This document shows positions 10,451 through 32,688 of a stretch of DNA of 64,000 nt, in pieces. The position numbers and the translations under genes are program-made. The notes under the pieces are model-generated. The model saw only the letters and a program-made list of their open reading frames with translations. It had not been told where the DNA came from and made no database searches. Numbering within the stretch: the first letter of the stretch is position 1; every line of letters begins with the position of its first letter. This DNA comes from Undaria pinnatifida (lineage: Eukaryota > Sar > Phaeophyceae > Laminariales > Alariaceae), in the NCBI GenBank assembly GCA_012845835.1, contig JABAKD010000023.1:11564427-11628426 (forward strand), read 5' to 3'.

Positions 10451-10627
10451 TGTCAGTCAGTCTGTGCGCGGAAACTATAAAATCCGTTTCTGAGGGGTAC
10501 AAAATCTGACAGCTGTGGAAGGAAATGTATCCGTTTGTCAAGTGAATCCTGTAAGTCGAATAACCGGTGCGGGGAGGGCGGAGTTTTGAAGGACGCGGGG
10601 CCCTGGTTTTGATCAAAAGCGAGCCGG

Positions 10628-11058: not shown

Positions 11059-11361
11059 GAAGCAGCGGAATGGATGGCTCTAAAAAGATAATGAGGTGAT
11101 ATCCAGTGCGTGAAGTGTTTATTATATATAAGTTGCTGTTGAATCACACCCAGAACGAGGGCGGTTCATTGACGGCAACCTCTAGGCGTAGGGTAAGAGG
11201 GTGTTGTTTTAAATTTCAGTACTCTGTAGTGTGGTTGAACTGGACTACTTGTCGTAGTTGCAAACGCAAGGCTGTTCGCGGTACGAAGCAAACGCGAACG
11301 CGTGCTATCTTATGTAGGACCGACCCGTGGTGGCGTGGTGTGGTTGTTCTATTTGCAGGAG

Positions 11362-11587
11362 CGTGCGGTGCGGTGCGGTGCGGTGCGGTGCGGTGCGGTG
11401 CGGTGCGGTGCGGTGCGGTGCGGTGCGGTGCGGTGCGGTGCGGTGCGGTGCGGTGCGGTGCGGTGCGGTGCGGTGCGGTGCGGTGCGGTGCGGTGCGGTG
11501 CGGTGCGGTGCGGTGCGGTGCGGTGCGGTGCGGTGCGGTGCGGTGCGGTGCGGTGCGGTGCGGTGCGGTGCGATGCGGTGCGGTGCG
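11362..11587. repeat. (GGTGC)n minisatellite, long allele
   Basis: About 45 pentamer units with one GCGAT variant near the right end. Because 5 is not a multiple of 3, all three frames stay open on both strands; the resulting frames are artefacts. Confidence 0.95.
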
Positions 11588-11892
11588 ATGATGCAGCTAC
11601 GGTGCGGTTCGGTGGTACCGCGCTGCACCTCGTTGCAACTGGAAGCTGCCGCACGCCCGCACCGTAAGAGCGACGCGCACCCTTATTAAAAACGCTGACA
11701 AATAAAAGCAAGCGTACAGCAAATATAACTTAAAGTCAGATGCGTGCACAGCAGATACCCGCCATCCTTGCATCGTACAAGTACAACAGTACGTATGTAC
11801 TTCGGCGTGCCTTCCGACTTGTGAGCTGGCTTTGCTTGTGCTGCCGGCTAAGTCTCCAGCCACCCCCCCGCCCAACTTAACGCTCCTGCCAG

Positions 11893-12015
11893 ATGATGGA
11901 CCGGGACGCTGCGGAGGCACACCCGAAATTCCAGGCGTTGGGTACGAGTGCAGGCGTCGTGAAAGGAATCGAAATGGCCTCGAGTCAAGATGACCTCCCG
12001 ATCCTGCCCGAGTAA
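11893..12015 (+). CDS. terminal exon, hypothetical protein (duplicate 2)
   Basis: Counterpart of 8917-9039: 40 residues, MMDRDAAEAHPKFQ to DDLPILPE, with the same acceptor context. See the first copy for the reasoning; family not recognised. Confidence 0.4.
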   Translation: MMDRDAAEAHPKFQALGTSAGVVKGIEMASSQDDLPILPE

Positions 12016-13234
12016 CGAACACACTCCGTTGTAAGCGTGGCGTAAGAAGGTGGGCTACATTGGTACACATCACAGCAGACGGCAGCAAGCTGTTATAAAC
12101 AAACTCCTTGCGAAACTACTCTGACGTCATGTCGGAGGGTCATGTCGGAGGTACCCAATTCGTAATGTCGTTCATGTGGCCGACCTTTTTCTTCTAACCT
12201 GCTGTTGCAGCTGCTGCTGCTGCTGTTGCTGCTGTTTGGTGTTTATGTGCAGTTTGAGTACAGCGCACACGCTAGTGCTCGCGTACCGCTCCGGTTGCTT
12301 GCTTCTGTTAATTTTGTGTTCCGCTTGATAGGAGTCTCACCGACGGTGACCCCAACACTGTAACAGGAACGTGCGGTGATAATAGTTTTTACTTGGTATA
12401 ATCATCACCGGGGACGGCGTGGTTCTGTGGAGTAGTGTTGAGGGGACCCCCGGCGACAAGAGGAAAGCTGCGCGAGGCCTGAATTTCAAGGGAATGCGCC
12501 AAAATCCACGGGCAACTTTCACGGGGTTGATATCGAGGAGATCTGGAACCAATATTATATGGGCGCTTGAGGCGCGACATCAGTTGGTCTAGGCCGCGGA
12601 CGCGTTAGCTCCACTTCGATGGGCCACTCATAGGGGAAAACTTTGCACCTCCTCCGTCTTGGTAGCCTCGTGCTCTTGCTTAGTGCGGTTGCAGTTGATT
12701 TATTTTCGTCAGTGTCGATTGCACCTCATTCAACCTGCTCTCTTCTCCTGTTGCTTCGTTGCGTGCTCCGTCTTTCCCTTCTCGTTGCTGCTGTGTTTTG
12801 TTGTTTACTGCTGCTGCTGCTTCCTTCCATGCGTACTGCTGTACCTTATTTTCTTTTTTTCGTAGGGCGGGGAACTTGAAGATGGAGAACCCGCTACTAG
12901 CGTTGTGACGATTACTGGCTAGCGTGTCTAGTGTGATCCCTGTGCGCGTTTGCACTATTTTTAAATAGTGGACGGAGAGGTGTTGATTGTGCATCTTGCG
13001 TACCATTTAGTTGCAGAACGACACACCCCTGCGTGGTTTTGGTGCTGCTCCATTTCGAACCCTTTGGTTTACCTCCCCCTTGCAGATCGTCGTACACCCT
13101 CTCGGCTGGGAGTTGGATGGTGGATGGTGCCTGATGGCTCTGCTCAGAAACTTCGAGAGTCAGTCCTTTGAATTTTGTATTTGGGCACAGTACACGTTAA
13201 GAAGTACGCATGACTGCGAATACCGATGTCAGAT

Positions 13235-13414
13235 ATATTATAAAAAATGAAAATACACTCCAGCTGTGAGATGGAAGATTTTGTCGAAACTCATCTTTGC
13301 AAGCTGTGTGTGATACTCCGATCGCGCGTATTACGGGTTGTGTGTCCTCATTAAGGATATAGGTCGGCGACTCCCCTTACAACTACAGTGTAGCTGTCAG
13401 GGTCGACAGGGTGA
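13235..13414. mobile_element. short dispersed element D, copy 2
   Basis: Carried along inside the second large duplicate; nearly identical to 10271-10450. Confidence 0.65.
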
Positions 13415-13591
13415 TGTCAGTCAGTCTGTGCGCGGAAACTATAAAACCCGTTTCTGAGGGGTACAAAATCTGACAGCTGTGGAAGGAAATGTATCCGTTT
13501 GTCAAGTGAATCCTGTAAGTCGAATAACCGGTGAGGGGAGGGCGGGGTTTTGAAGGACGCGGGGGGCTGGTTTTGATCAAAAGCGAGCCGG

Positions 13592-13979
13592 GTTGGAGGG
13601 GGGGGGAAAGGGGGGGGGGGGGGGACTAGGGGGGAGCGGACGGGCGGGCAATTTGTGCGTGGAAGCTATAAATCCTTCAAGGGGATAAATCTGACGGTTT
13701 CGGAAAACAACAAATGAAAAATGCACCAGTTTATCATAGGGGGGGGGGGTGGGGCAGCAATCTGTGCGTGGAAACTATACATTATTTCAAGGGGGTAAAT
13801 GTGACGGTTTGGGAAATAATGCATCATTTTATCATGTATATCCTGGGGTAAGTCGTACAATCAGTGAGTAGAGAGAGGGCGGAGTGTTCGAGGGGGTGGG
13901 GGTGGGATGGGGTGGGGGGCTGTGGGGAGGTGGGGGGCGGGGGCGGGGGCGGGGCAGGGGGTAGGGGGGGGGGGGGGGG
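13592..13979. repeat. G-tract array, copy 2
   Basis: Shorter counterpart of 10628-11058, with one subunit fewer and shorter G runs. Confidence 0.85.
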
Positions 13980-14112
13980 AGAAGCAACGGAATGGATGGC
14001 TCTAAAAAGATGATGAGGTGATATCCAGTGCGTGAAGGGTTTATTATATATAAGTTGCTGTTGAATCACACCCAGAACGAGGGCGGTTCATTGACGGCAA
14101 CCTCTAGGCGTA

Positions 14113-15048: not shown

Positions 15049-15186
15049 GGGTTGGGAGTTGACTCGTGTATACGGATGTTAGCGTGGGGTTGCCGGCGGG
15101 GCAGCCCCGGTGTATTCCCATGTCCAACCCCCCTCTCCGGGCGGGGCGTTGCGCATTAATATAGTACAACTTCGAAAGCAAAGCGC
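15049..15186. repeat. dispersed repeat F, copy 2
   Basis: Diverged match to 5888-6035, again directly followed by repeat C. Confidence 0.55.
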
Positions 15187-15194
15187 AAAGCAGA

Positions 15195-15872
15195 ATATTA
15201 TCGAAGTACAATTGTGTGAGAAAATATGGGTTCTGTACGTACGTAAGAAGTTTGATCAATCAGATCAATACGGTAATTCATAGTCGTATGAGCGATAGCA
15301 TTGGACACACCTGACCCAGCTGTGTAGGCAACGACCTGCACGCGGAGCGCTTAGGGGAGCAGAGTCAGAGCTTACAGGTCCAAGGTGTGATACAGACTAG
15401 TTTAAGTTCCCACCCACCCGCCCGTGCTTTTGAGGGAGTCAGTGGAGGGGGAGCTAATCGGTCGCAGTAACGTTGCGCGTTTGTTACTGTTTTGGTAAAC
15501 GTACTCGTTTTCGCTGAAGATGCGACGGGGTTTCGTAGATTGCGCATAGGTTTTGTACGTACGTAAGAAGTTTGACCCATCAGATCAATGCGGTAATTCA
15601 TAGTCGTATGAGCGATAGCATTGGACACACCTGGCCCAGCTGTGTAGGCGACGACCTGCAGCACGCGGAGCGCTTAGGGGAGCAGAGTCAGAGCTTACAG
15701 GTCCAAAGTGTGATACAGACTAGTTTAAGTTCCCACCCACCCGCACGTGCTTTTGAGGGAGTCAGTGGAGGGGGAGTTAATCGGTCGCAGTAACGTTGCG
15801 CGTGTTTGTTACTGTTTTGGTAAACGTACTCGTTTTCGCCGAAGATGCGACGGGGTTTCGTAGATTGCGCAG
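15195..15872 (+). repeat. repeat C in a ~320-bp tandem pair
   Basis: From 15229 to 15548 and from 15549 to about 15872 the same ~320-bp unit occurs twice, about 95% identical. Each has the repeat C core followed by a unique block (GTTCCCACCCACCCGC to GATTGCGCA). A tandem terminal-repeat arrangement would fit the split direct repeats of DIRS-order elements, but no coding sequence follows, so this is only an inference. Confidence 0.7.
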
Positions 15873-16175: not shown

Positions 16176-16368
16176 CAAGGGCTCCGCAAGGGCGCCGGCA
16201 TTCGTCGGCGCCCATGCTTCGGGTAGGTCAGGGCAGCACTTCGACAACTTAAGGTGTAGCTGTCCGATTTGGCATGCATTGAACTTTAAAGTAATGCCAA
16301 GAGTTTAATACGAACATGGGATTATGAAAGTTATGCTTTGACAAAAGAAAAAACGTAATAAATCTTTA
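16176..16368 (-). mobile_element. Helitron-like 3' end, diverged subfamily
   Basis: On the minus strand the sequence finishes with a hairpin (GGGCGCCG, 8-nt loop, CGGCGCCC), a 14-nt spacer and CCCTTG, followed in the flank by TAT. The plan is that of the four full copies nearby, but the stem has a different sequence. A coding-like start ATGCCAAGAG lies 117 bp inside the end (16293), also as in those copies. A related piece lies at 58343. The inner boundary is unclear because full copy 1 starts at 16369. Confidence 0.6.
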
Positions 16369-17451
16369 CAAGGAGCTACGCCGGCGGCCTGGACGGCCGC
16401 CGGTCGCAGCGCAGGATAGTAAATATTAAGAGGGTAAGAAGTAATGCCAAGAGTTAGACGAAGTTGTTAATTCATATATGGGAGATACTGGAAAGGGAAA
16501 ATGCCGACAATTTTTTCCCGATTTCCCGTGTGCGGCGGAACAATGCGAGAAGGCAGCCTGGAAATTATGGGAGAGCATGGCGGTTCACCCCAGCTGGGTG
16601 ACGCTCTGCGTTGCTACGCAGAAAGGCGCGGCCACAGCTGCTGCTGTGCATATACCTGCTGTGCATATACCATTTGTAGCTTCGTGATGCTGCTGTGCAT
16701 ATACCATTCGTAGCTTCGTCATGCTGCAGGCTCATCATAGCTTCAGCTACTGCTGTACATCATGTACATGTACGTGCTGCTGATTTATACGTGCTGCTGT
16801 AGACTACCGGGGGTTCAAAAATATTGAGAGTTCGCTGTTCTCCACGACGCCTAGCTGCTGCTGTGCATATACCATTTGTAGCTTCGTGATTCTGCTGTGC
16901 ATATACCATTTGTAGCTTCGTGATGCTGCTGTGCATATACCATTTGTAGCTTCGTGATGCTGCAGGCTCATCATAGCTTCAGCTACTGCTGTACATCATG
17001 TACACGTGTATACGTGCTGCTGTAGACTTCGCAGTTCTCCACTACGCCTGGGTGGCATGTGTTCTCGGGGATTACGAACTTTTCTTCCCCAGATCCTAGC
17101 ACAAACCTCGCTTAGTGGCCTTTACAATGGCGACGCCGGCCAGGTAATCGACCCCCCCCGTGTGTCGGAGGTCAGAGAACACGTACCGAAGAAATAACGC
17201 GAAGACATTAGCCCTGTGTGCAGACTACGCACCAAACGTCTCACAGGGCACGATTTTTCGGAGATCTCGTCGTAGATTTCGACGTCAAGGCCTCGCGCGC
17301 GCGCTACGGCGCCGAGCGGGCGGATCAGCTGAGCCGTTGGTTGCAGGCGAGGCGGGGGCACGCCTCAGCGAAGAAACCGCGCGGAAAGGCGGTCAGAGGC
17401 GGGAGATATCCGCAGACGTAAGGATGTGCATATGTGATAAGCGAACTAAGA
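16369..17451 (-). mobile_element. Helitron-like element HLE, copy 1
   Basis: Read on the minus strand, the element starts TCTTAGTTCGCTTATCAC after an A and ends with a GC hairpin (CCGGCGGC, 7-nt loop, GCCGCCGG), 12 nt and CTCCTTG before a T. No TIR and no longer target duplication is seen, which is the Helitron plan, except that the end is CTTG rather than the usual CTRR. The plus strand carries a two-part coding region in which this copy has a worn first exon. The central part is a 34-bp minisatellite (GCTGCTGTGCATATACCATT and so on). Confidence 0.7.
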
Positions 17452-17536
17452 TATATAGATACAAGGGGCTACGCCGGCGTCCTGGACGGCCGCCGGTCGC
17501 AGCGCAGGATAGTAAATATTTAGAGGGTAAGAAGTA

Positions 17537-17767
17537 ATGCCAAGAGTTAGACGAAGTGTGTTAATTCATATATGGGAGATACTGGAAAGGGAAAATGCCG
17601 ACAAATTTTTCCCCGGTTTCCCGTGTGCGGCGGAACAATGCGAGAAGGCAGCCTGGAAATTATGGGAGAGCATGGCGGTTCACCCCAGCTGGGTGACGCT
17701 CTGCGTTGCTACGCAGAAAGGCCTGGCCACAGCTGCTGCTGTGCATATACCATTTGTAGCTTCGTGA
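17537..17767 (+). CDS. HLE-encoded protein, first exon (copy 2)
   Basis: A 76-residue frame starting MPRVRRSVLIHIWEI. The first ~60 residues are conserved in copies 3 and 4 (19595-19365 and 27869-27633, minus) and contain two Cys-based motifs (FPCAAEQCEKAAWKLW and VTLCVATQKG) with conserved Trp residues. After QKG the frame runs into the 34-bp minisatellite, so the exon probably ends there. A last exon (about 18315-18512) is also conserved. I do not recognise the fold; it is not a Rep/helicase. It may be a captured host gene or a family-specific protein. Coding lies antisense to the direction in which the element's 5' and 3' ends are defined. Confidence 0.45.
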   Translation: MPRVRRSVLIHIWEILERENADKFFPGFPCAAEQCEKAAWKLWESMAVHPSWVTLCVATQKGLATAAAVHIPFVAS

Positions 17768-18314
17768 TGCTGCTGTGCATATACCATTTGTAGCTTCGTG
17801 ATGCTGCTGTGCATATACCATTTGTAGCTTCGTCATGCTGCAGGCTCATCATAGCTTCAGCTACTGCTGTACATCATGTACATGTACGTGCTGCTGTAGA
17901 CTACCGGGGGTTCAAAAATATTGAGAGTTCGCAGTTCTCCACGACGCCTAGCTGCTGCTGTGCATATACCATTTGTAGCTTCGTGATGCTGCTGTGCATA
18001 TACCATTATTTGTAGCTTCGTGATGCTGCAGGCTCATCATAGCTTCAGCTACTGCTGTACATCATGTACATGTATACGTGCTGCTGTAGACTACCGGGGG
18101 TTCAAAAATATTGAGAGTTCGCAGTTCTCCACTACGCCTGGGTGGCATGTGTTCTCGGGGATTACGAACTTTTCTTCCCCAGATCCTAGCACAAACCTCG
18201 CTTAGTGGCCTTTACAATGGCGACGCCGGCCAGGTAATCGACCCCCCCCCGTGTGTCGGAGGTCGGAGAACACGTATCGAAGAAATAACGCGAAGACATT
18301 AGCCCTGTGTGCAG

Positions 18315-18512
18315 ACTACGCACCAAACGTCTCACAGGGCACGATTTTTCGGAGATCTCGTCGTAGATCTCGACGTCGAGGCCTCGCGCGCGCGCTACGG
18401 CGCCGAGCGGGCGGATCAGCTGAGCCGTTGGTTGCAGGCGAGGCGGGGGCACGCCTCAGCGAAGAAACCGCGCGGAAAGGCGGTCAGAGGCGGGAGATAT
18501 CCGCAGACGTAA
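18315..18512 (+). CDS. HLE-encoded protein, probable last exon (copy 2)
   Basis: After a CTGTGTGCAG acceptor, an open frame encodes about 65 residues with FFGDLVVDLDVEASRARYG in the middle and a basic tail (SAKKPRGKAVRGGRY) ending in TAA at 18512. The same frame is open in copies 1, 3 and 4. Third positions are C/G-rich, unlike the first exon. The join to the first exon and the number of exons between are not determined. Confidence 0.4.
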   Translation, partial: TTHQTSHRARFFGDLVVDLDVEASRARYGAERADQLSRWLQARRGHASAKKPRGKAVRGGRYPQT

Positions 18513-18558
18513 GGATGTGCATATGTGATAAGCGAACTAAGATATATAGATTTATTTA

Positions 18559-19670
18559 TCTTAGTCCGCTTATCACATATGCACATCCTTACGTCTGCGG
18601 ATGTCTCCCGTCTCTGACCGCCTTTCCGCGCGGTTTCTTCGCTGAGGCGTGCCCCCGCCTCGCCTGCAACCACCGGCTCAGCTGATCCGCCCGCTCGGCG
18701 CCGTAGCGCGCGCGCGAGGCCTCGACGTCGAAATCTACGACGAGATCTCCGAAAAATCGTGCCCTGTGAGACGTTTGGTGCGTAGTCTGCACACAGGGCT
18801 AATGTCTTCGCGTTATTTCTTCGGTACGTGTTCTCTGACCTCCGACACACGGGGGGGGGTCGATTACCTGGCCGGCGTCGCCATTGTAAAGGCCACTAAG
18901 CGAGGTTTGTGCTAGGATCTGGGGAAGAAAAGTTCGTAATCACCGAGAACACATGCCACCCAGGCGTAGTGGAGAACTGCGAACTCTCAATATTTTTGAA
19001 TCCCCGGTAGTCTACAGCAGCACGTATACATGTACATGATGTACAGCAGTAGCTGAAGCTATGATGAGCCTGCAGCATCACGAAGCTACAAATGGTATAT
19101 GCACAGCAGCATCACGAAGCTACAAATGGTATATGCACAGCAGAATCACGAAGCTACAAATGGTATATGCACAGCAGCAGCTAGGCGTCGTGGAGAACTG
19201 CGAACTCTCAATATTTTTGAACCCCCGGTAGTCTACAGCAGCACGTACATGCACATGATGTACAGCAGTAGCTGAAGCTATGATGAGCCTGCAGCATGAC
19301 GAAGCTACAAATGGTATATGTACAGCGGCATCACGAAGCTACAAATGGTATATGCACAGCAGCATCACGAAGCTACAAATGGTATATGCACAGCAGCAGC
19401 TGTGGCCACGCCTTTCTGCGTAGCAACGCAGAGCGTCACCCAGCTGGGGTGAACCGCCATGCTCTCCCATAATTTCCAGGCTGCCTTCTCGCATTGTTCC
19501 GCCGCACACGGGAAATCGGGGAAAAATTTGTCGGCATTTTCCCTTTCCAGTATCTCCCATATATGAATTAACAAACTTCGTCTAACTCTTGGCATTACTT
19601 CTTACCCTCTTAATATTTACTATCCTGCGCTGCGACCGGCGGCCGTCCAGGCCGCCGGCATAGCCCCTTG
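18559..19670 (+). mobile_element. Helitron-like element HLE, copy 3 (inverted)
   Basis: Starts TCTTAGTCCGCTTATCAC at 18559 and ends hairpin-CCCCTTG at 19670, followed by TATT. It lies head to head with copy 2, with 16 bp (TATATAGATTTATTTA) between the two 5' ends, so 17462-19670 is a ~2.2-kb palindrome with arms >90% identical. Such a palindrome is expected to be unstable in cloning and to snap back when single-stranded. Confidence 0.8.
19365..19595 (-). CDS. HLE-encoded protein, first exon (copy 3)
   Basis: MPRVRRSLLIHIWEI start, 76 residues, intact; matches the copy 2 exon with few substitutions. The last exon equivalent is at about 18589-18786 on the minus strand. Function unknown. Confidence 0.45.
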   Translation of the reverse strand: MPRVRRSLLIHIWEILERENADKFFPDFPCAAEQCEKAAWKLWESMAVHPSWVTLCVATQKGVATAAAVHIPFVAS

Positions 19671-20315
19671 TATTATAATACAACAAAGAAGGCAAGGATA
19701 GGCGAAACAAACTATGTTAAATGCGCCGCCAAGTAAAAGGTGGCGTTTATCAAACAAAAATACCGAAAAAAGTATTATAATTGAGAACCTGCGTCGCCTC
19801 TAGGCGAAACAAAAGAGGCCTTGGCATTAATGAAGAGACTGCACTGCTGTCCCCGTGGCAATGGAGGTTCGAAGTCGACAGGATGCAAAGTCGGTTTGCA
19901 TCAAACGTCGACATGGGGACATGACAGCCGGCGAGGTTTTGGAAGAAGATTGCTTTGTTTGTTACGTGAAGGCTGTCGCATTGATTGGTCTGCGTGGTCG
20001 CGGGCGAGGAGGAAAACGTAGAAGAGGAGGGCGATCTCTCGTTGAGGCGGCGTTGTCTAAGATTGGTGCGGGGATGGCTTTGCTCGTACGGGAGGTTGGC
20101 GTAGCGCTTCTTCTCTGTTTTTTCTCGAGAAGGCGGGATATGTGTGTCTGCTGTCTTTTCTTCGTGGGGGCTTTCACGTTGTCGAAATCGGACGCGTCCC
20201 CTCAATGCATAATATCCGGAGTGTCTCTACCATGACGACTGCTGATAGTGCCGTGCGTATTTCCTAGAGACTGACATATTATTTACTGGTAGCAATAATA
20301 ATATACCTTTGCAAC
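19671..20315. other. no gene assigned
   Basis: Contains a 14-bp palindrome (TCGCCTCTAGGCGA) near 19795 and overlapping short frames of 126-151 residues on both strands that I do not believe are genes. Near 19827 the minus strand has ATGCCAAG, the same start as the HLE frames, possibly a remnant. Confidence 0.35.
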
Positions 20316-20676
20316 ATTTTTTTTTTTCATCCCATGCATTATCCCCGCACCACTCTCGCGCTCCCTCCCAGTAGTATCTCAGATCCGGGGTCACATAGCG
20401 GGCCCTCCTCCTCCCTCCCCACTTCGGCACGTGCTTTCATTTTTACCGCGAGGAGAATCCAGCATTTTCTTCCCTCGTCGACTCGCGTCGAATTGTACCT
20501 ACCCACGCTGCTAGGCGCTCTCAGCAGTTGGTTGATCCCTGTTTTTTTTTTTGCATTTTTGCAAATAAAGTCAAATCTCATCGTGGTGGGTGTCGAACTC
20601 AAGGACAACCAAACGTTGGTAGTGTTCGAGTGTAAAACCACTATTATTAATAGACCACCGGGGCGGCCGGCTGACA
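20316..20676 (-). mobile_element. tRNA-derived SINE, copy 1
   Basis: On the minus strand the 5' head reads CCCCGGTGGTCTA, then AGTGGTTTTACAC, like a tRNA A-box region (an extra ~8 bp lies in between), followed ~60 bp on by GAGTTCGACACCC, a clear B box. A unique body follows and the 3' end is A-rich (GGGATG then A runs). A diverged second copy lies at 60415-60770. This is the classic layout of a Pol III SINE whose movement depends on a LINE. Confidence 0.7.
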
Positions 20677-21145
20677 AATGATTAAAACAAAACGGGATCT
20701 TTGCATAGAGATTACATTCCCTCCCCCATATTGTATGATATTACGATGGTTGACGCAATATCCTTATTACTCAGTATATAATACGCTAAGGTGGTCGTGA
20801 CGTTTTTTTTGGATCTTTGAAATATCTTGGTTAAAACACCCCCCCCACAAAAGCGGTGACTCCCGAGCTCCACTCGGCCTCAGGCGGCCTCGCGGTGCCG
20901 CCACGTCCCATCCGCACAGCAGCACTACGACATGCCGGCGAAAGAACGGGCGTCGGTGCCCCACCTCGGCGAGGGGGAAGCGTGGAAATCGCCCTCCCGG
21001 GGACGGCTCGCTTGGCCCCCGGCGTGGCGGGGAATAGTAAACAATTGCAAATCCCGCCCAGCCCGAGAGCATTGTAACCAACGAATCGGCTGCTGCTCGC
21101 CTGTCAGGTGTATTGCTCTACGAACTGCTGCATTGCTGTACTGTA
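20677..21145. other. no gene seen; flank of the Copia insertion
   Basis: The last ~90 bp (GCTGCTGCTCGCCTGTCAGG and CTGCTGCATTGCTGTACTG) resemble the repeat array on the far side of the Copia element at 26030-26230. This suggests that the element landed inside one array. Confidence 0.45.
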
Positions 21146-21672
21146 TGTTGGTAAACTCGTAGCATATAGGGAAAATATGTTGTATTATTGAGCAATTGCC
21201 CTTCTGAGACAGGTAGGCAAGGTGGAGTTGCCGAAAGAACTAGTGCAGGACGTAGAGTCTGAGCCTGATAGCTATCAAGAAGCCCGGCAATCGAAGTACG
21301 CCACGATTTGGGATGGAGCTATGTCTGCAGAAGTTGAAGGCTTGATAAGGGCAGGAACGTTCACGTTAGCGGAAAAGATTCCAATAGGCTGTAACGTGAT
21401 AGATGCTAGATGGGTTTTCAAATGGAAAGCAGACGAAACAGGAAAGATAGTGAAGGCCAAGGCTAGGCTTGTCGCGAAGGGCTTCAGGCAGAAGTATGGT
21501 GTAGACTATCTTGAGACTTTCTCGCCTACTGCAAATCCTGCATCAATTCGATTGTTGGTAGCATTGGCGTGCAAGTATGATTTGGAATTACTCCACCTTG
21601 CCTACCTGTCTCAGAAGGGCAATTGCTCAATAATACAACATCTTTTCCCCAGAAGCCACGAGTTTACCAACA
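21146..21672 (+). repeat. left terminal block of the Copia-type element
   Basis: 527 bp: an ~80-bp arm, about 370 bp of RT-derived sequence, and the same arm inverted. It starts TGTTGG and ends CCAACA, like an LTR. The right end of the element shares only the last 451 bp, so the two ends are not a standard LTR pair. Confidence 0.75.
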
Positions 21673-21828
21673 CGCTATAGCGACAAAGGTGTCTATTGCT
21701 CCGTCGTCCCCTTGGACTACACTAGACTGCTGTACGAGAGAGGCCTGATCAACCTGTCTCATCATGGCTGAACGGGGACACCTGCGTGTGGCCGAGTTCA
21801 GAGTAATCCGCAGGATGTTGGCGAGAGG

Positions 21829-24807
21829 ATGGTTTCCCTAGAGACGCAGTTGTCCCAACTTACGACTCTAGTCACGTCGCTTGTTGATCAACAGAAGGAG
21901 CAAGTGGAGTCCTCTGTGTCTGCTGTCGCGCCGGGAGGCGGCGGAACAGAGTATGCTGGTGGTACGCATTCTACCGATGATGCTACTGGCAGGACCGCGG
22001 GAGGTACGGGCGGCGATGCCCAAGGCCTTGGCGTGTCCAGCATAGGAGTTGGGAGTAGTAGCCTTGCTGGCTCAGGCTTGAACCCTAATGTATTCGCTGT
22101 TAATCGTTCATCTGCTGGTGCTGCAAGCTTTGGTTCGATTGGGATTGGAAGTGGGGCTGTAGGTAGCCAGTCTTTCGTTCCCGGGACTGTAGGTAGGGCT
22201 CTCGGAAGCCAGTCCTCTGTTCCTCCCGAACCTACTCCGTCGAGCAGGTGGTGGGAAAGTGTCGCCAGTGGAAACAATCTGATTTCTGGGGCCGGCATTA
22301 CTGATACAGGAGAGAAGTTGGGTGGGGGTCCTTTCAAAGTTCCCAAGGCTCCTGTTTTCGATGGGACAGACGTATCTTACCCCTCATGGTCGCAGAATTT
22401 TCTGCTAAGTGCCCGGCACAACAATCTGTATCAGGCGTTTGTTTCCGAGACTGAGATTCCGATTGCTGACATTGGTTTCGACTTGACCCCCTGGGTAGAG
22501 AAAGGATTCAGTGTGGGTGTGCTGCGTCAGGCTGAGATGGCATGGTGGTTTCTGTTCGACTGCTTGAAGAAGGATAGTCTGAAAACTATGGTTCGCCACG
22601 CTGGTTCTTCCAGCAAGGGTTTTCGAGTGCTGAAAGATCATTTTCTGCCGTTGAGCCAGAGTCAGATTCGTGTGCAGGAGGAGAAACTCAAATCACTGCG
22701 CATGCGTTCGAATGAGAATCCCTCGATCTTCTTTGCATCTGTGAGAGAGACCCTTGGTGTGCTTCAACTGCTGGAAGTCAAGAAAGATGACAGAGAGGTG
22801 TGCAACCTGATGCTCGAGGGGCTGTCGCATGAATATAAGACTCTGCGTGAAACTCTGGTAGTGTTCTGCCCGAATGACCCGTCGTTCATAGAGACTAAAG
22901 TGCGTGAACGGTACCTCGACTTGCAGACTCAAGGTGGTCCGAAGAAACACAGTGTTGCTCTGATGTCTAGGCCTGAGAAGAAGAGTGCGAAGAAGCAGAA
23001 GTACAAGTCAAGGTCTAAATCCGAGTCTGATTCATCTAAGAAAACGGCGTTTCAAGGGAAGTGTTTCAAGTGTGGGGAGGTCGGTCACGTGAAGAAGGAT
23101 TGTTTGGCTCGTGTGATCGCTCATCCCTCCCAGACCGGATCATCCAAGGACGCCAAGAATGAAAACGGTGAGATATCTGAGTTGTTAGTGCTTCTGTCCC
23201 AAACTGACTCGGACCTGAGGGATACCTGGAATGATACCATGGTGTTTCTGTCCCAAAATCTCTCAAACGATTGGAGTGATGACACGTATCTTGCATCGTG
23301 GTATGACTTTGTACTGGTGAATTGGGTGAATTCTTATGGTGCTGATATTCCAACGCTGTATAGTGAAGTGGCGGACAGGATAAGGAACTATGTCGGTAGT
23401 GATCGTGTTATTCGTGATTATATTCGTGAATATGCCACTCTCACCAAGAGGTGTTTCGAAGATTGGTATGCAGACACAGGTACCGCTTTCCACATGACAG
23501 ATTCTCTCTCGCGTATGAAGGATGTGAAGCCTTGCCACAAGAATGTAAAGGGAATTGGTGGCGTGACTTGTGAGGTAGCTCTTTCAGGAACTCTGGAATT
23601 GGTGTTCGTGTCTGCTGACAACGAGTTTTTGGTAGAGTTGAAGAATGTGCTGTACTGTCCCAAATTGGGGTACAACCTTTTTTCCCCCAGCGCAGAATTT
23701 CATGGCGAGTCATGGAATGGTCTTGGTGGTCCTCGTGGTGTGATGACTGCTTTCCACGGACATGTGACTTTTGAGAATTTCGATGGCATGTTTGTTGCGA
23801 CTGCGTATCGTGTGGGTGATGACTCTATTGGATCCGTGTTGGCTGCCCTCACTCCTTCAAACCCCAAGCACGAAACGATTATGGATGTGAATGACTTTCA
23901 TAACATTTATGCTCACTCACATGAAGGATTGCTTCGTACTACTGCAAAGCGACTGGGTATCAAGTTGACTGGTAGCCTAGATGCTTGTACGGGATGTTCG
24001 ATGTCGAAGGCAATTAGAAAAGGGATTGCTCGTGAAACTAAATGTAGATCAGATAAAAAGTTAGGGAGAGTTTATGTTGACCTGGGAGGGAAGAAGGCCG
24101 TTGTATCCATAGGGGGAAAGTATTACCCCATGATTGTGAAAGATGATTTCACAAGGCGTGCATGGATCTATTACCTGAGAAGTAAATCAGACGCTGCGAG
24201 TGCTTTCCAGAGTTTTCTTGCTAGTGTGCGTGCTGATGGAATCCCATCATTGGTTGAGATTGTTAGATCTGACAATGGAGGGGAGTTTTTCGGTGGAGAA
24301 TTTGTATCTGTGTGCAATGAGCTCTTGATTAAGCAAGAGTTCACCCCAGCTTACAGTCCTCAATACAACGGTGTTGCAGAGCGTGGCTTGGGATTGATAG
24401 AGGAGGCCGCAATGGCGGCTCGTGTTCAGGCGAAAGTTCTTTTTGGGCATGTACAGTTACCTAAGACTGACAGACTCTGGGCTGAGGCAATGCACTGGGC
24501 TTGCGAGGCACTTAATCACACGGCTTGTTCTGCTAACCCCGATTCCAAGTCGCCGTATGAAATGTGGTATGGGGAAGCTCGTCCTGCTAAACCTTATCAA
24601 TTTTTGAAACCGGCGTACTGCAAGTGGCAGCGACCGTCGAAGCTTTTTCCGAAGGGTGAGAGTTGCTTTTATGTCGGTCCTTCGAGAGACCACCCGCGTG
24701 ATTGTCATAGAGTACTTACGAGGGCTGGGACTATTCAGGAAACGAGGGGTGTAACGTGGGAGGCGTTGCCGTCACAACTCCCTCCACCGCAACCTCCATT
24801 CCGATAA
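21829..24807 (+). CDS. Copia-type gag-protease-integrase polyprotein region
   Basis: One long frame of 992 codons. A Gly/Ser-rich N-terminus is followed by a UBN2-type gag (about residues 165-380), a basic linker, a CCHC zinc knuckle CFKCGEVGHVKKDC (about 412-425), an aspartic protease with the DTG active site (WYADTGTAFHMT, about 546), a GAG-pre-integrase segment with an H/C cluster (CTGCSMSK, about 722), and an integrase core with the expected acidic triad (VYVDLGG, RSDNGGEF, NGVAERG, between about 747 and 852). The domain order integrase before RT is the hallmark of Copia/Pseudoviridae. In life the products assemble virus-like particles in the cytoplasm and insert cDNA in the nucleus. This part looks whole. 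Confidence 0.9.
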   Translation: MVSLETQLSQLTTLVTSLVDQQKEQVESSVSAVAPGGGGTEYAGGTHSTDDATGRTAGGTGGDAQGLGVSSIGVGSSSLAGSGLNPNVFAVNRSSAGAASFGSIGIGSGAVGSQSFVPGTVGRALGSQSSVPPEPTPSSRWWESVASGNNLISGAGITDTGEKLGGGPFKVPKAPVFDGTDVSYPSWSQNFLLSARHNNLYQAFVSETEIPIADIGFDLTPWVEKGFSVGVLRQAEMAWWFLFDCLKKDSLKTMVRHAGSSSKGFRVLKDHFLPLSQSQIRVQEEKLKSLRMRSNENPSIFFASVRETLGVLQLLEVKKDDREVCNLMLEGLSHEYKTLRETLVVFCPNDPSFIETKVRERYLDLQTQGGPKKHSVALMSRPEKKSAKKQKYKSRSKSESDSSKKTAFQGKCFKCGEVGHVKKDCLARVIAHPSQTGSSKDAKNENGEISELLVLLSQTDSDLRDTWNDTMVFLSQNLSNDWSDDTYLASWYDFVLVNWVNSYGADIPTLYSEVADRIRNYVGSDRVIRDYIREYATLTKRCFEDWYADTGTAFHMTDSLSRMKDVKPCHKNVKGIGGVTCEVALSGTLELVFVSADNEFLVELKNVLYCPKLGYNLFSPSAEFHGESWNGLGGPRGVMTAFHGHVTFENFDGMFVATAYRVGDDSIGSVLAALTPSNPKHETIMDVNDFHNIYAHSHEGLLRTTAKRLGIKLTGSLDACTGCSMSKAIRKGIARETKCRSDKKLGRVYVDLGGKKAVVSIGGKYYPMIVKDDFTRRAWIYYLRSKSDAASAFQSFLASVRADGIPSLVEIVRSDNGGEFFGGEFVSVCNELLIKQEFTPAYSPQYNGVAERGLGLIEEAAMAARVQAKVLFGHVQLPKTDRLWAEAMHWACEALNHTACSANPDSKSPYEMWYGEARPAKPYQFLKPAYCKWQRPSKLFPKGESCFYVGPSRDHPRDCHRVLTRAGTIQETRGVTWEALPSQLPPPQPPFR

Positions 24808-25427
24808 AGATCGCGGAGGAGGGAGGGGAGGAAAGTGACAACGATGTAGAAGCCAAGGTATGGCCGCTTGTAGGGAGGGGAGTTGCCCACACACTGTTGC
24901 GAAATAACGCGGCAGTGGTCCCCTTTGGTGCAGCAACGAACGAGGTAGTGGTCCCCCCTGGTGAAACAGTCAATGTGGTTGAAAGTGTTGACGCAGAGAG
25001 TGTAGGTCGATCGCTGTTTGCCCCCTCTGTGCCATCTTCGCCCGTTCCCTCTGTGTCGTCTCCAGCACCTGAGTTCACCGATGGTGAGGGGCAGGGAGGG
25101 CAAGATGTGGGGGAACTAGGGTCGGTGGGTCCTGAAGAGCAGGATACAGAGTCTATAGGGCCGGGAGGGCAGGAGGCAGAGGCAGAGGCATCTCCTCCAG
25201 TTGCTCGTCGTCCGCGGCATGTAGCTGAGCTAGCTGATTTCAACAACCCTGCGCGTGAGAATGATGAAGTAGGAGAAGGTAGAACTCGCGCGCAAACCCG
25301 TGCAGACAACCAGCAGAATGTATCTGGCCTTGTGGCCACTCTAGGGCCCGTCTGCGCAACAGAGATAATATATGCGCTGTTGGCGGAGCAGAGAGCAGGT
25401 GACACAGTGGAATTGCCGAAATAACTA

Positions 25428-25800
25428 GTGCAGGACGTAGAGTCTGAGCCTGATAGCTATCAAGAAGCCCGGCAATCGAAGTACGCCACGATTTGGGATG
25501 GAGCTATGTCTGCAGAAGTTGAAGGCTTGATAAGGGCAGGAACGTTCACGTTAGCGGAAAAGATTCCAATAGGCTGTAACGTGATAGATGCTAGATGGGT
25601 CTTCAAATGGAAAGCAGACGAAACAGGAAAGATAGTGAAGGCCAAGGCTAGGCTTGTCGCGAAGGGCTTCAGGCAGAAGTATGGTGTAGACTATCTTGAG
25701 ACTTTCTCGCCTACTGCAAATCCTGCATCAATTCGATTGTTGGTAGCATTAGCGTGCAAGTATGATTTGGAATTATTCCACCTTGCCTACCTGTCTCAGA
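25428..25800 (+). pseudogene. Copia-type RT, N-terminal part
   Basis: Recognised by WVFKWKADETGKIVKAKARL and AKGFRQKYGVDYLETFSPTA, the conserved fingers region of Copia reverse transcriptases. Preceded by a Ser/Pro/Glu-rich linker from about 24810. The same segment is repeated at 21222-21590 in the left terminal block. Fossil. Confidence 0.85.
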
Positions 25801-25857
25801 AGGGCAATTGCTCAATAATACAACATCTTTTCCCCAGAAGCCACGAGTTTACCAACA

Positions 25858-26894
25858 CTGCAGTACTGGGTAGGTCCGTGGGTGCGTGGTGGGTGGGTGG
25901 GTGGTGGGTAGTGGGTGGTGGGTGGGTGGTGGATGGCGGCTCGCTCGCTCCCCGACATGGCCGAGTATCGTCAAAAAATGAAACTCCCCCCGTTTGTTTC
26001 CTGCTTCATACCTGGTACAATGTGCTCAAGAACTAACCAACTAACTGCTCCTCGCGTACCAGGTGTACTGCTGTACGTACTGCTGCACTTTTTGTTTCCT
26101 GTTTCATACAAGGTCTGCCGTATAAAAGGAGTACAGCAGTAAGAAGGGTACCATCGGTTCCATGAACCAACCAACTAACTGCTCCCCGCGTACCAGGTGT
26201 GCTGCTGTACGTACTGCTGCACTGCTGTTCTGCTGTATGTAGTAAAGGTTTGGTCAGTGGGTGGGTGGAGGATGCACTGACTGCGTCGTCCGTGGTGGGT
26301 GGGTGGCCTATTATTTTTTGTTTTCTTAGTACTTAGACTTAAAAGAGAGCTCTGAGGGTGATACAGCACCTTTTTTTTTTCTTTTTGGGTGTAGGTGCAC
26401 TGCTGTACGTACTGCTGCACTGCCGTACGTACTGCTGCACTGCTGTACGTACTGCTGCACTGCTGTACGTACTGCTGCACTGCTGTACTGCTGTATGAGG
26501 TGAAGGTTTGGTCGGTGGGTGGGTGGAGGGTGCACTGTGTCGTCCGTGGTGGGTTCGTGGGCCGTTCCGTACGTTGGAGTCTTTTTTCGTCCTGTGGGAG
26601 ATGCACCTTTTTTTTGTTTAAAGAATATCGGCCTCCCACTGGTACCACCGTCGCCACTGCTGCACTCCTCTGTCCTTTACTACCGTACGTACTGCTGCAC
26701 TGCCGTACTGCTGCCTTGTTATTATTATATTTTTTTTTTTAGTATTGCACTCAGAGGATACAGCACCAATTTGTTTTTTTGCGCCATACCGGCCGGCAAC
26801 TGGCAAACTTCGGGAGTACCACTAGTGTATAGAATAAAGCGCCAAATACCTAAATATCAGCGTACGCGGAGTTTGAGATATATAAATCTATATA
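25858..26894. repeat. tandem array of GTAC/TGCTG minisatellite units
   Basis: CTGCTGTACGTACTGCTGCA units of about 19-24 bp, clustered at 26065-26095, 26200-26240, 26395-26490 and 26680-26715, within larger ~290-bp repeats that also share GGTTTGGTC(A/G)GTGGGTGGG and CGTCGTCCGTGGTGGG. No gene seen. Confidence 0.8.
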
Positions 26895-27944
26895 TCTTAG
26901 TTCGCTTATCACATATGCACATCCTTACGTCTGCGGATATCTCCCGCCTCTGACCGCCTTTCCGCGCGGTTTCTTCGCTGAGGCGTGCCCCCGTCTCGCC
27001 TGCAACCACCGGCTCAGCTGATCCGCCCGCTCGGCGCCGTAGCGCGCGCGCGAGGCCTCGACGTCGAGATCTACGACGAGATCTCCGAAAAATCGTGCCC
27101 TGTGAGACGTTTGGTGCGTAGTCTGCACACAGGGCTAATGTCTTCGCGTTATTTCTTCGGTACGTGTTCTCTGACCTCCGACACACGGGGGGGGGTCGAT
27201 TACCTGGCCGGCGTCGCCATTGTAAAGGCCACTAAGCGAGGTTTGTGCTAGGATCTGGGGAAGAAAAGTTCGTAATCCCCGAGAACACATGCCACCCAGG
27301 CGTAGTGGAGAACTGCGAACTCTCAATATTTTTGAACCCCCGGTAGTCTACAGCAGCACGTATACGTGTACATGATGTACAGCAGTAGCTGAAGCTATGA
27401 TGAGCCTGCAGCATCACGAAGCTACAAATGGTATATGCACAGCAGCAGCTAGGCGTCGTGGAGAACTGCGAACTCTCAATATTTTTGAACCCCCGGTAGT
27501 CTACAGCAGCACGTACATGTACATGATGTACAGCAGTAGCTGAAGCTATGATGAGCCTGCAGCATGACGAAGCTACAAATGGTATATGCACAGCAGCATC
27601 ACGAAGCTACAAATGGTATATGCACAGCAGCTTCACGAAGCTACAAATGGTATATGCACAGCAGCAGCTGTGGCCGCGCCTTTCTGCGTAGCAACGCAGA
27701 GCGTCACCCAGCTGGGGTGAACCGCCATGCTCTCCCATAATTTCCAGGCTGCCTTCTCGCATTGTTCCGCCGCACACGGGAAATCGGGGAAAAATTTGTC
27801 GGCATTTTCCCTTTCCAGTATCTCCCATATACTCGCATGAATTAACAAACTTCGTCTAACTCTTGGCATTACTTCTTACCCTCTTAATATTTACTATCCT
27901 GCGCTGCGACCGGCGGCTGTCCAGGCCGCCGGCGTAGCCCCTTG
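26895..27944 (+). mobile_element. Helitron-like element HLE, copy 4
   Basis: A solitary copy: TCTTAGTTCGCTTATCAC at 26895 after ATATA, and hairpin (CCGGCGGC, TGTCCAG, GCCGCCGG) plus CGTAGCCCCTTG at 27944 before TATA. It gives clean boundaries for the family, independent of the palindromic cluster. The minisatellite between the exons has fewer units here. Confidence 0.8.
27633..27869 (-). CDS. HLE-encoded protein, first exon (copy 4)
   Basis: MPRVRRSLLIHASIWEIL start; two extra residues (Ala-Ser) relative to copies 2 and 3, otherwise the same ~60-residue conserved block. An in-frame 6-bp change is what one expects if the frame is, or recently was, under selection. The last-exon equivalent is at about 26925-27122, minus. 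Confidence 0.45.
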   Translation of the reverse strand: MPRVRRSLLIHASIWEILERENADKFFPDFPCAAEQCEKAAWKLWESMAVHPSWVTLCVATQKGAATAAAVHIPFVAS

Positions 27945-28208: not shown

Positions 28209-31200
28209 TTGGTCAATTGCTGGCTGTTGGGAGGGAATTGCCGTTGACGGCTGCAAACAATTTGAATTTGAAATTTGCCGGATCGGCAATAACAATTTGA
28301 AGTTGAAATTCGCGAATCGAGTCAAGGCTAGTGCGGGAGGAGGCTCCGCCAACAGTGGGGGTGGTGGAGGTTCAGGATCAGGCGTGTGGAAGCTGGTCGG
28401 GCAAGAACGAGATTCAGCTTCTTCTGGCAATCCTGATTGGCCGTGCCCGAGCAAGGGTTGTGACGGCTTCCTCATCGCACGAAATAGGAAAAACAGGAGT
28501 TCCCAGTACGCTGTCTGCGACACCTGCAGGAGTGACGAGCCTTCCACGTGCCAAGCTTTTCATAACCTTAACAAGAAGCACTGGGGAAGCGGTGACAACC
28601 CTCGTGTGTGTGACTGGTGTGACGCGGACACCTGTGATTCACCTTCGATCGGCGTCCCTAACGAAGGAGCTGAGAGCTTGACGAAACGTGAGTTTCATTT
28701 CTTCGTGTTGTTGGAATTTGATGTTTGCTGTCAGCTACTATACTACTACTGATGATGTTGAGAGTTTTGTTTCCGTGGTCAGTGTGTTCAGCGCCGTGCG
28801 ACATAGGTAAGACACCAGATGTCAACACCCTGTATTTTCGGTAGTGCTGCGTTGAGTGTTGGCTGAGTATGCTGCAAGTTGTGCGCAATAGACTACCAGT
28901 ATGTGGTTTTGGGTGTTGGTGAACTCAAGCGAATCCTGTTTCCAATAATGATGCACATTGAAATTTACATTGTTTGACCTTGTGTGCCTTTCTGCAACGT
29001 CTGCTGTAGCATGTGTGTGCTACACCAGCGTGGTCGAACTACCACACGGTGTGGAAGCTGTGCTTGGGGACGCGTAGCCTGAACAAACTCAAGTTCGCCT
29101 TGGTGGTCACGGAGGGCAGTCCCGTCGTCGGGGTAAGCATGTTGTACTAGTTGTCTACGCAGTTGTGTGCTGTGATTTCTTTTTCATGCGTACAAACACA
29201 CTTTTGCATGTACGAGTACGTGTACGGGGCAGTCCCGTCATCGGGGTATAAGCGGGAATTGTACAAGTACTCAGGTCTACGAGTAGACCTATGCAGTGAC
29301 GCTGTGTGATGCGATTTCTTTTTCATACGTACAGCCAAACACACTTCATGTATGTACGACTACGAGTACGGGGCAGTCCCGTCATCGGGGTAAGCGGGGG
29401 TTGGACAAGTGGTCCATGCAGTGACGCTTTGTGCTGTGATATAAACACACGTTTTGGATGTACGACTACGACTACGTGGTATCTATACATGTAAGACGGA
29501 ATGAAAACGGGCAAGTCTCATCACGGGGGTCAGCCAGGGTTGTAAAAATGGTCCATGCAGTGATAAATAACACAGCAGCATGATACCTCAGCACCAGTCG
29601 CAGTACACACTGGAGGTTGATATTATAAAAAATGAAAATACACTCCAGCTGTGAGATCGAAGATTTCGTCGAAACTCATCTTTGCAAGCTGTGTGTGATA
29701 CTCCGATCGCGCGCATTACGAGTTGTGTGTCCTCATTAAGGATATAGGTCGGCGACTCCCCTTACAACTACAGTGTAGCTATCAGGGTCAACAGGATGAT
29801 TTTATATATATAGCAGTAAGCAGAAGCTGAAGTTAACCTGGGTGGTGCTGGAGAGCAGTCCCGTGATTGGGGTTAGCGAGTTGTTCATGTAGTGACGCGG
29901 TGTACTACTACTGTTACTCATTTTTCATACAACCACATGAACTCTTTGTATTAACGAGTACAAGAAGGGTGCGCAACCTCTTCAGGAATCGCAGTACACG
30001 TCGGTCGTAATAGTGTTGATAGCAGCAGTAATAGAGTAGTACCGAACAATATATACAGCAGGTACTGTCTCTTACCCTTCGTTGTCGGTATTCCGAGTTT
30101 CATTTCTTCGTGTTGTTGGAATTTGATGTTTGCTGTCAGCTACTATACTACTACTGATGATGTTGAGAGTTTTGTTCCCGTGGTCAGTGTGTTCAGCGCC
30201 GTGCGACATAGGTAAGACACCAGATGTCAACACCCTGTATTTTCGGTAGTGCTGCGTTGAGTGTTGGCTGAGTGTGCTGCAAGTTGTGCGCAATAGACTA
30301 CCAGTATGTGGTTTTGGGTGTTGGTGAACTCAAGCGAATCCTGTTTCCAATAATGATGCACATTGAAATTTACATTGTTTGACCTTGTGTGCCTTTCTGC
30401 AACGTCTGCTGTAGCATGTGTGTGCTACACCAGCGTGGTCGAACTACCACACGGTGTGGAAGCTGTGCTTGGGGACGCGTAGCCTGAACAAACTCAAGTT
30501 CGCCTTGGTGGTCACGGAGGGCAGTCCCGTCATCGGGGTAAGCATGTTGTACTAGTTGTCTACGCAGTTGTGTGCTGTGATTTCTTTTTCATGCGTACAA
30601 ACACACTTTTGCATGTACGAGTACGTGTACGGGGCAGTCCCGTCATCGGGGTATAAGCGGGAATTGTACAAGTACTCAGGTCTACGAGTAGACCTATGCA
30701 GTGACGCTGTGTGATGCGATTTCTTTTTCATACGTACAGCCAAACACACTTCATGTATGTACGACTACGAGTACGGGGCAGTCCCGTCATCGGGGTAAGC
30801 GGGGGTTGGACAAGTGGTCCATGCAGTGACGCTTTGTGCTGTGATATAAACACACGTTTTGGATGTACGACTACGACTACGTGGTATCTATACATGTAAG
30901 ACGGAATGAAAACGGGCAAGTCTCATCACGGGGGTCAGCCAGGGTTGTAAAAATGATCCATGCAGTGTTAAATAACACAGAAGCATGATACCTCAGCACC
31001 AGTCGCAGTACACACTGGAGGTTGAAATATAGCAGTAAGCAGAAGCTGAAGTTAACCTGGGTGGTGCTGGAGAGCAGTCCCGTGATTGGGGTTAGCGAGT
31101 TGTTCATGTAGTGACGCGGTGTACTACTACTGTTACTCATTTTTCATACAACCACATGAACTCTTTGTATTAACGAGTACAAGTAGGGTGCGCAACCTCT

Positions 31201-32134
31201 TCAGGAATCGCAGTACACGTCGGTCGTAATAGTGTTGATAGCAGCAGTAATAGAGTAGTACCGAACAATATTTGCAGCAGGTACTGTCTCTTACCCTTCG
31301 TTGTCGGTATTACGCCGGTAGGCCTTATATAGCAGTATACCGGGGCTTACGCTTACCAGTTGCGACTGTGAATCCCGTCCGTTCCTGTCCCAGTGGTGGT
31401 TTCATAGGTGTTAGCAACGTTGTGGTACCAGGCAGGGCTTTGCCCATAAACGACCGCTTTCATTACAACAGCAGTGTTAAATTGTACGACTTCCTTTCAA
31501 ACTTTGGAAAACGACGACAGCTACGTGGCCTTACTATTTTGAACATTCACTGAACGCAAGGTATTCCCATCCGTTGTTGTCGTTTGCAGAAGCCCTGCGA
31601 AGCAGCCGCCGAGGGCCGCCAAGTCTGCGAGGACATAAACACGAAGTGCACCGGCGACATCAAGGTCGGTGACCTCCTGAAGAAGGCAGGCGACCACTTG
31701 CTCGATATACATCCCGCATTCCATTCCCACGGTGCCACGAGGGCGTTCGACATCGAGGTACGTTCTACTCTTATCTTGCGTCCTGTGTCACGAGTCGAGA
31801 CATCCATGTCTCTTGCTCAAGACTAGGGGATGGCGTGCGGATATAGTCTATGAAGTGCGGCTCCTTTTCCGAGTACCAAGAGCAAGTACAACAATACCAC
31901 AACAATTACTAACAACGAAATGAGCTCCAATGATTTGGATGGTTACGACGTCTGCTGGAGAGAAGTACGAATACTTTTTTACACATACTTATCGACGTCC
32001 TCCCGCCTTGCTTCAACGTTTGTGGACAGATCCACAAGATCATCGACAAAAAACAAGAGTGCAAGGTGCTGGGTACCTCCGCTGAGGAGGAAGAGTCCAA
32101 GCAAGCCTGCATGCTCCTTCGGAAGCAATGTTGA
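28209..32134 (+). CDS. cysteine-rich protein, multi-exon host gene
   Basis: Exons: E1, within about 28209-28687 (5' boundary unknown); E2, 29029-29132 or its duplicate 30434-30537; E3, 31590-31757; E4, 32030-32134 ending TGA. All junctions are GT-AG and phases match: E1 leaves one base, E2 supplies two and ends in phase 0, and E3 and E4 are phase 0. E1 has a Gly/Ser linker then Cys pairs (PCPSKGC, VCDTC, VCDWC, DTC), like zinc ribbons. E2 has WSNYHTVWKLCLG. E3 has KPCEAAAEGRQVCEDINTKC and E4 EESKQACMLLRKQC, so Cys residues continue throughout. The start lies in an upstream exon that I cannot see, as E1 has no ATG. Family not recognised; zinc binding or disulfide bonding are both possible. Confidence is high that this is a gene, low on role. 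Confidence 0.7.
29029..29132 (+). CDS. alternative exon 2a of the cysteine-rich gene
   Basis: 104 nt, acceptor CTACACCAG, donor GTAAGC. Encodes a shared Pro codon end plus 34 residues from WSNYHTVWKL to GSPVVG. Length is not a multiple of three, so joining both copies would shift the frame. Confidence 0.65.
29620..29806. mobile_element. short dispersed element D, copy 3 (polymorphic between duplicates)
   Basis: Present in duplicate 1 between GGAGGTTGA and TATAGCAGTAAG, absent from duplicate 2 at the same site. It therefore inserted after the 1.4-kb duplication and gives a clean empty site. Confidence 0.75.
30095..31310. repeat. 1.4-kb tandem duplication inside the gene, copy 2
   Basis: Near-identical to copy 1 (about 99%) except for the family D insertion. 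Holds exon 2b. It lacks the GT of the exon 1 donor because the duplication begins two bases into the intron. Confidence 0.9.
30434..30537 (+). CDS. alternative exon 2b of the cysteine-rich gene
   Basis: Duplicate of exon 2a in the second 1.4-kb repeat; the only difference is Val to Ile near the end (GSPVIG). Same splice sites. Confidence 0.65.
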
Positions 32135-32479: not shown

Positions 32480-32688
32480 CATCATGGACTGGGTGAATGG
32501 ATGATAATAACAAACTCATAATCATAATCGTCTCTATCCTGTACCGTTGTACTATATATGTACCTCTTGGCATTTTCAAGTCGCCAGTTGCGCCATTTGT
32601 GCTTCTTTTCCGCCTTCCTACTGAATGTCCATTCCTCCTTCCGCAAGCGTAGCGGGCGGCGCCCAGCCGCCCGCGAGCGAAGCCCTTG
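32480..32688 (+). mobile_element. Helitron-like 3' end, second diverged subfamily
   Basis: Hairpin GCGGGCGGC, 5-nt loop, GCCGCCCGC at about 32652-32674, then a 14-nt spacer ending AGCCCTTG and an external (TA)n run. On the minus strand a frame starts MPRGTYIVQRY at about 32576, matching the ATGCCAAG start of the other members. The left boundary is not resolved. The stem differs from the main family but keeps full pairing. Confidence 0.6.

Follow-up and report, generated by a model that had tools for sequence, protein, structure and literature searches.

The subject of this analysis is a family of short, Helitron-like elements in a stretch of 64,000 nucleotides (nt) from the brown alga Undaria pinnatifida (contig JABAKD010000023.1 of assembly GCA_012845835.1, forward-strand positions 11,564,427 to 11,628,426), hereafter the window, whose positions are counted from its first letter. 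This 64-kb window is the basis of all the sequence results, while the remainder comes from the literature. The anatomy of the elements, their termini, the similarity of their copies and a motif shared by their 3' ends are observed directly in the letters. The following features can be distinguished:

16369-17459, minus strand: copy c1, 1091 nt, full length
17462-18550, minus strand: copy c2, 1089 nt, full length, with one mismatch in the 3' stem
18551-19670, plus strand: copy c3, 1120 nt, with the 5' end TTTATTTATCTTAG in place of TCTATATATCTTAG
26887-27944, plus strand: copy c4, 1058 nt, full length, with TATATAAA on both flanks
27910-27932, plus strand: core of the 3' hairpin of c4, nine pairs and a 5-nt loop; equivalents at 16381-16403 (minus, c1), 17474-17496 (minus, c2) and 19636-19658 (plus, c3)
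27860-27870, plus strand: motif CTCTTGGCATT, 74 nt before the terminus of c4; other sites at 19586-19596 (plus), 17536-17546 (minus), 16443-16453 (minus), 16293-16303 (minus), 32564-32574 (plus) and 58459-58469 (minus)
16176-16303, minus strand: 3' end of a second Helitron-like family, with the motif, an 8-bp hairpin with an 8-nt loop, and AGCCCTTG followed by TA; 5' end not found
32564-32688, plus strand: 3' end of a third family, with the motif, a 9-bp hairpin with a 5-nt loop, and AGCCCTTG followed by TA; 5' end not found
58343-58469, minus strand: seventh 3' end, located through CTCTTGGCATT and missed by the first-pass annotation of this DNA; it reads CCCTTG followed by CATAT

Four young copies and their arrangement

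The four full copies proposed in the first-pass annotation, which had been made from the sequence alone, were recovered by self-comparison and global alignment (lengths 1058-1120 nt). They are young, with pairwise identities of 98.1-99.0% in the gap-free columns of the global alignment; the larger gaps fall in an internal tandem-repeat region with a 34-bp unit. The closest pair is c1 and c4 (99.0%, 10 differences in 1004 columns), which lie 9.4 kb apart, while c1, c2 and c3 are neighbours. Since c1 is closest to the distant c4, the cluster of c1 to c3 is not simply a local duplication and is best read as separate insertions; a recent tandem duplication was, on the same ground, rejected as its source.

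Within the cluster, c1 and c2 stand head-to-tail with TA as their only spacer, and c2 and c3 adjoin head-to-head with zero spacer at the extended 5' borders described below. An inverted repeat with 541-nt arms, 98% complementary, is reported at this second junction (18537-18564). Copy c1 is read as nested in the element that ends at 16176, from whose 3' end it is set back by 193 nt. According to PMC3288121, maize helA elements prefer to insert near or inside other Helitrons, a preference with which the side-by-side position of c1 to c3, 193 nt within the 16176 end, agrees.

The 3' hairpin, the CTTG terminus and a shared motif

At the 3' end of the four copies, the GC hairpin and the CCTTG before TA that had been described are both present: the hairpin core has 9 bp and a 5-nt loop, and CCTTG is followed by TA at all four ends. 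The spacing had been given as 12 nt and then CCTTG, which counts CCTTG twice; there are 12 nt in all between core and terminus, that is, 7 nt plus CCTTG. The two extra ends, at 16176 (minus strand) and 32688 (plus strand), were also borne out, with differing stems that pair, a tail of AGCCCTTG followed by TA and 14 nt between core and terminus.

The window was scanned, whatever the stem sequence, for GC-rich hairpins with 7-12 pairs, no more than one mismatch and a loop of 3-9 nt, placed 4-16 nt before CTTGT. Six sites were returned, exactly these six ends, whereas 100 dinucleotide shuffles averaged 0.49 sites and never exceeded 3. With CCTTGTA as the terminus, the count was six in the window and zero in 100 dinucleotide shuffles. 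The same hairpin before the canonical CTRR and a T gave nothing notable in the window (three sites versus 1.56 in shuffles). When the last 50 nt were folded as single-stranded DNA, the z scores against shuffles were -4.35 (c4), -3.49 (16176) and -2.34 (32688).

The hairpin had been said to covary. This is true between families: in the 32688 stem, four of the nine pairs are changed on both sides with respect to the four-copy family, with pairing kept, and a score as high as the observed one arises in 3 of 500 column shuffles. It is not true inside the four-copy family, where stem variation consists of a wobble pair in c4 and a mismatch in c2. The count used five rows, four of them distinct, and the 16176 stem was left out because its loop length differs. 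Three independent stems thus preserve the hairpin structure from one family to the next.

The motif CTCTTGGCATT, first noticed by eye, occurs in all three kinds of 3' end. There are seven exact occurrences in the window, and still seven when one mismatch is allowed, versus 1.16 in shuffles. It is found at six of the six hairpin ends, and the one exact match elsewhere pointed to the seventh end, at 58343; as the motif was found by looking, this seventh end is the fair test of it. The distance from motif to terminus is 74 nt in the four copies (taken from the coordinates for c1, whose end reads TCCTTG and was missed by the script pattern), and 117, 114 and 116 nt at the 16176, 32688 and 58343 ends, respectively. 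Among random 170-nt stretches of the window, 11 nt in common were seen in 0 of 4000 triples, 0 of 4000 quadruples and 1.5% of pairs, some of these pairs coming from duplicated stretches.

The 58343 and 16176 ends have a 24-nt stretch in common (23 of 24 identical). The GC stem of the 16176 end is gone at 58343, where CTCTTGGCATT is retained; a stem of seven pairs, one of them G-T, can be drawn there with a 9-nt loop, 5 nt before the end. CTTG is present at all seven ends, and T follows it at six.

The 5' end and the target site

The copies had been thought to start at TCTTAG. This start is not sustained by the alignment of the copies, in which homology extends 8 nt further upstream, to an A followed by TCTATATATCTTAG in c1, c2 and c4 and by TTTATTTATCTTAG in c3. 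Above that point the flanks differ among copies, their AT-richness aside. Because the alignment runs upstream of TCTTAG to that point and the flanks diverge above it, the true start of the element is most likely the 5'-TC after A, which is the classical Helitron start. The A precedes the 5' end in four of four copies and the TC is present in three (c1, c2 and c4).

Borders drawn at TCTTAG and CCTTG have a merit of their own, as TA then stands on both sides of the element in all four copies, and this is the main counter-reading: a DNA transposon, of a cut-and-paste type without terminal inverted repeats (TIRs) or of another type, inserting into TA with a 2-bp TA duplication. Such a transposon leaves the upstream homology unexplained, namely nine nt, ATCTATATA, common to c1, c2 and c4 and matched at seven of nine in c3. 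Moreover, TA-inserting elements of the Tc1/mariner type carry TIRs, whereas the copies have none, as had been claimed (1-2 of 12 terminal positions match in the four copies). The 8-9 nt of homology upstream of TCTTAG led to TA duplication being rejected as the principal interpretation; it is held to be improbable.

Returning to the start at 5'-TC, the first eight letters of TCTATATATCTTAG, ATCTATAT, match the 5' search pattern given for maize helA, ATC[TC]NTA[TC]TA (PMC3288121), and the later letters depart from it. When the first 251 nt of c4 were aligned locally with the window, the four copies being masked, there was no match at the score used, and the 5' ends of the 16176, 32688 and 58343 elements were not found. 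The blocks 20317-20669 and 60420-60765 were considered as a candidate 5' portion for the elements ending at 16176 and 58343 and then dropped, because their minus strand resembles, by eye, a tRNA-derived short interspersed nuclear element (SINE). These two blocks are 74% identical, and ARAGORN (bacterial code) finds no tRNA gene in them.

Non-autonomous elements of the Helitron2/Helentron type also deserve consideration: like FoHeli, they combine rolling-circle movement with ends other than CTRR (PMC5148889; PMC3627910). The hallmarks given for Helitron2 are a 5' hairpin and asymmetric terminal inverted repeats 8-15 bp long. Both features were looked for in the four copies. Inverted matches between the first 40 and the last 90 nt reach 4-5 nt, no longer than in shuffles, and folding of the first 50 nt yields -1.2 to -1.5 kcal/mol, no notable hairpin, versus -14.5 to -19.3 kcal/mol for the last 50 nt. 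In contrast to Helitron2, Helentron and FoHeli, then, the present elements have neither an asymmetric terminal inverted repeat nor a notable 5' hairpin; with an inverted match of at most 5 nt and so weak a 5' fold, this assignment was rejected and is regarded as the most improbable of those weighed here.

At borders set between A and TC and between CTTG and T, flanking direct repeats measure 2 nt in c1 and 8 nt in c4 and are lacking in c2 and c3; no target duplication is common to the four copies. In the 20 nt past the 3' end, 15-18 positions are A or T; Helraiser sites are likewise described as AT-rich, most strongly on the 3' side (PMC4778049).

Some of these traits could also suit a retroelement of the SINE or long interspersed nuclear element (LINE) type, whose RNA would end in a stem-loop recognised by reverse transcriptase and whose tails would be TA-rich. 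A stem-loop does stand immediately before the 3' end, the 3' flanks are TA-rich, with a TA run after the 32688 end, and c4 has its 8-nt flanking repeat. Nevertheless, the four copies are all full length with the same 5' end, the other copies have a 2-nt flanking repeat at best, and the 3' flanks share no repeat unit, all of which makes a retroelement very improbable.

Probable non-autonomous Helitrons

The elements are very probably non-autonomous Helitrons with Helitron1-type ends, that is, with (i) 5'-TC after a host A; (ii) one subterminal GC hairpin; and (iii) CTTG-3' before a host T. The Helitron-like nature proposed in the first-pass annotation thus remains the best reading of the 5'-TC after A in three of four copies, the subterminal hairpin, the CTTG before T, the lack of a TIR and of a common target duplication, the AT-rich 3' flanks and the clustered copies; its 5' boundary was wrong.

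Together with the TA repeat at the alternative borders, the following points weigh against this classification: (i) c3 begins with TT, not TC; (ii) the 8-nt direct repeat TATATAAA flanks c4, in AT-rich sequence, and is absent at the other three copies; (iii) the 5' flank of c1, which is the 3' end of c2, is not AT-rich (6 of 20); (iv) the second base after the 3' end is A at six of six hairpin ends, and therefore the end could be CTTGTA, not CTTG, with CTTGT a further candidate; (v) the weak stem at 58343 does not stand out from shuffles, 23 of 200 folding at least as stably (z -1.23); (vi) the base after the 58343 end is C, not T; and (vii) no Rep/helicase domain was found in the 40 open reading frames (ORFs) searched with Pfam, of the 236 ORFs of at least 90 amino acids in the window.

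Those 40 ORFs gave solely Copia-type domains above the cut-offs, and the five tested frames that overlap the copies gave no Pfam family above cut-off. Since no Rep/helicase is encoded in the tested ORFs, the copies would need a RepHel from elsewhere. Rfam returned no match at its gathering threshold. Outside the alga, two sequence patterns had no match in viral contigs, and one pattern run against bacterial and archaeal genome contigs gave none either. Two gapped patterns hit six loci (L001-L006), of which L001 and L004 are the same stretch, as are L002 and L005. A compact stem immediately ahead of the end is lacking in L001, L003, L004 and L006. In L002 and L005 a 9-pair stem does fold at that place, but the other strand of L002 encodes part of a Cpn10 chaperonin (Pfam E 7.4e-06). 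Because the stem is absent in four loci and L002, the same stretch as L005, overlaps the Cpn10 gene, all six were taken as chance matches.

By published description, canonical Helitron1 elements (maize helA and helB, Helraiser/Helibat) resemble the present ones in the 5'-TC after A, the 3' hairpin some 10-12 nt from the end, the T after the end, the AT-rich target and the nesting near other Helitrons. They differ in ending in CTRR (as CTAG in the families from maize and bat), while CTTG stands at all seven ends here. This departure narrows the subgroup and does not, alone, exclude Helitrons, because CTTG is a published Helitron variant. For the same reason, the novelty implied when the third base was said to break the CTRR rule does not hold: HELPO2 of Pleurotus ostreatus is reported to end in CTTG (PMC4289320), and so are some insertions of Helraiser constructs with no hairpin or with no right end at all (PMC4778049). 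The latter paper adds that CTTG was "seen with maize Helitrons", through its reference 21, apparently PMC3288121, which speaks of CTAG; this mention is second-hand and unconfirmed. Pleurotus Helitrons are further described as carrying a subterminal hairpin and inserting specifically at AT, with no duplication of the target (PMC4289320). The likeness to HELPO2, which is one of published description, lies in the CTTG 3' end; the difference is that the HELPO families are reported to have Rep and helicase domains, whereas the present copies have no recognised coding domain. Helitrons are also on record in Ectocarpus, with 13 families (PMC12477816), and in Chlamydomonas (PMC3627910).

The CTTG end being known in other Helitrons, what these elements add is mostly a young family, together with a shared subterminal motif that may merit attention. 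The family joins the few recorded Helitrons that end in CTTG, which are invisible to CTRR-based searches, and the combination of hairpin, CTTG before T and CTCTTGGCATT offers a handle for finding an autonomous element in the genome.

In the published Helitron model, RepHel nicks at the 5'-TC, unwinds the DNA, pauses at the 3' hairpin and cuts at the 3' tetranucleotide, and the resulting circle can insert at AT (PMC4778049). By analogy, rolling-circle movement of the present elements might proceed as follows: a RepHel made elsewhere in the genome would (i) nick at the 5'-TC, unwind and peel off one strand; (ii) pause at the 3' hairpin and then cut after CTTG; and (iii) the strand or circle would enter a site between A and T without duplicating it. 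The terminus and the 11-nt subterminal motif are shared by no fewer than three kinds of element whose stems differ, so that a single RepHel lineage probably serves them all.

The motif may be a site for RepHel recognition or for termination; it would also follow from shared ancestry of the 3' region by itself. Extended to (A)CTCTTGGCATT(AC), it could be such a site, located beyond the 40 bp at the terminus that suffice for precise cleavage of Helraiser ends. More tentatively, and with the odds leaning the other way, there may be a Helitron lineage in which CTTG has become fixed as the terminus across several families and in which this box, 74-117 nt from the end, is a second conserved 3' signal. 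A motif common to families with different stems allows one to ask whether RepHel reads a site beyond the hairpin.

The surroundings of these elements are rich in other repeats, self-comparison revealing numerous interspersed repeats and segmental duplications in the window. The content of the window reads as eukaryotic, with a Copia-type pol between c3 and c4 in which Pfam identifies rve, Pol_BBD and zinc-knuckle domains (21772-24804) and RVT_2 (25425-26033); over 21206-26033, a 468-bp segment that holds RVT_2 is present twice (21206-21673 and 25391-25858), flanking the integrase frame. A tandem segmental duplication of about 2.7 kb (95.6%) occupies 8532-14112, with GTGCG satellite arrays at 8532-8611 and 11363-11587. 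Another tandem duplication, at 28690-31314, has units that are 98.6-99.3% identical; its first unit holds a repeat of about 180 bp (at about 29620-29807) and its second unit does not, which gives an in-window pair of filled and empty sites for another short element. This repeat recurs at 10271-10451 and 13235-13415 (96%). Finally, an interspersed repeat of about 220 bp, roughly 88-93% identical between sites, is found at 6914-7129, 15185-15408, 15546-15731 and 45348-45560.

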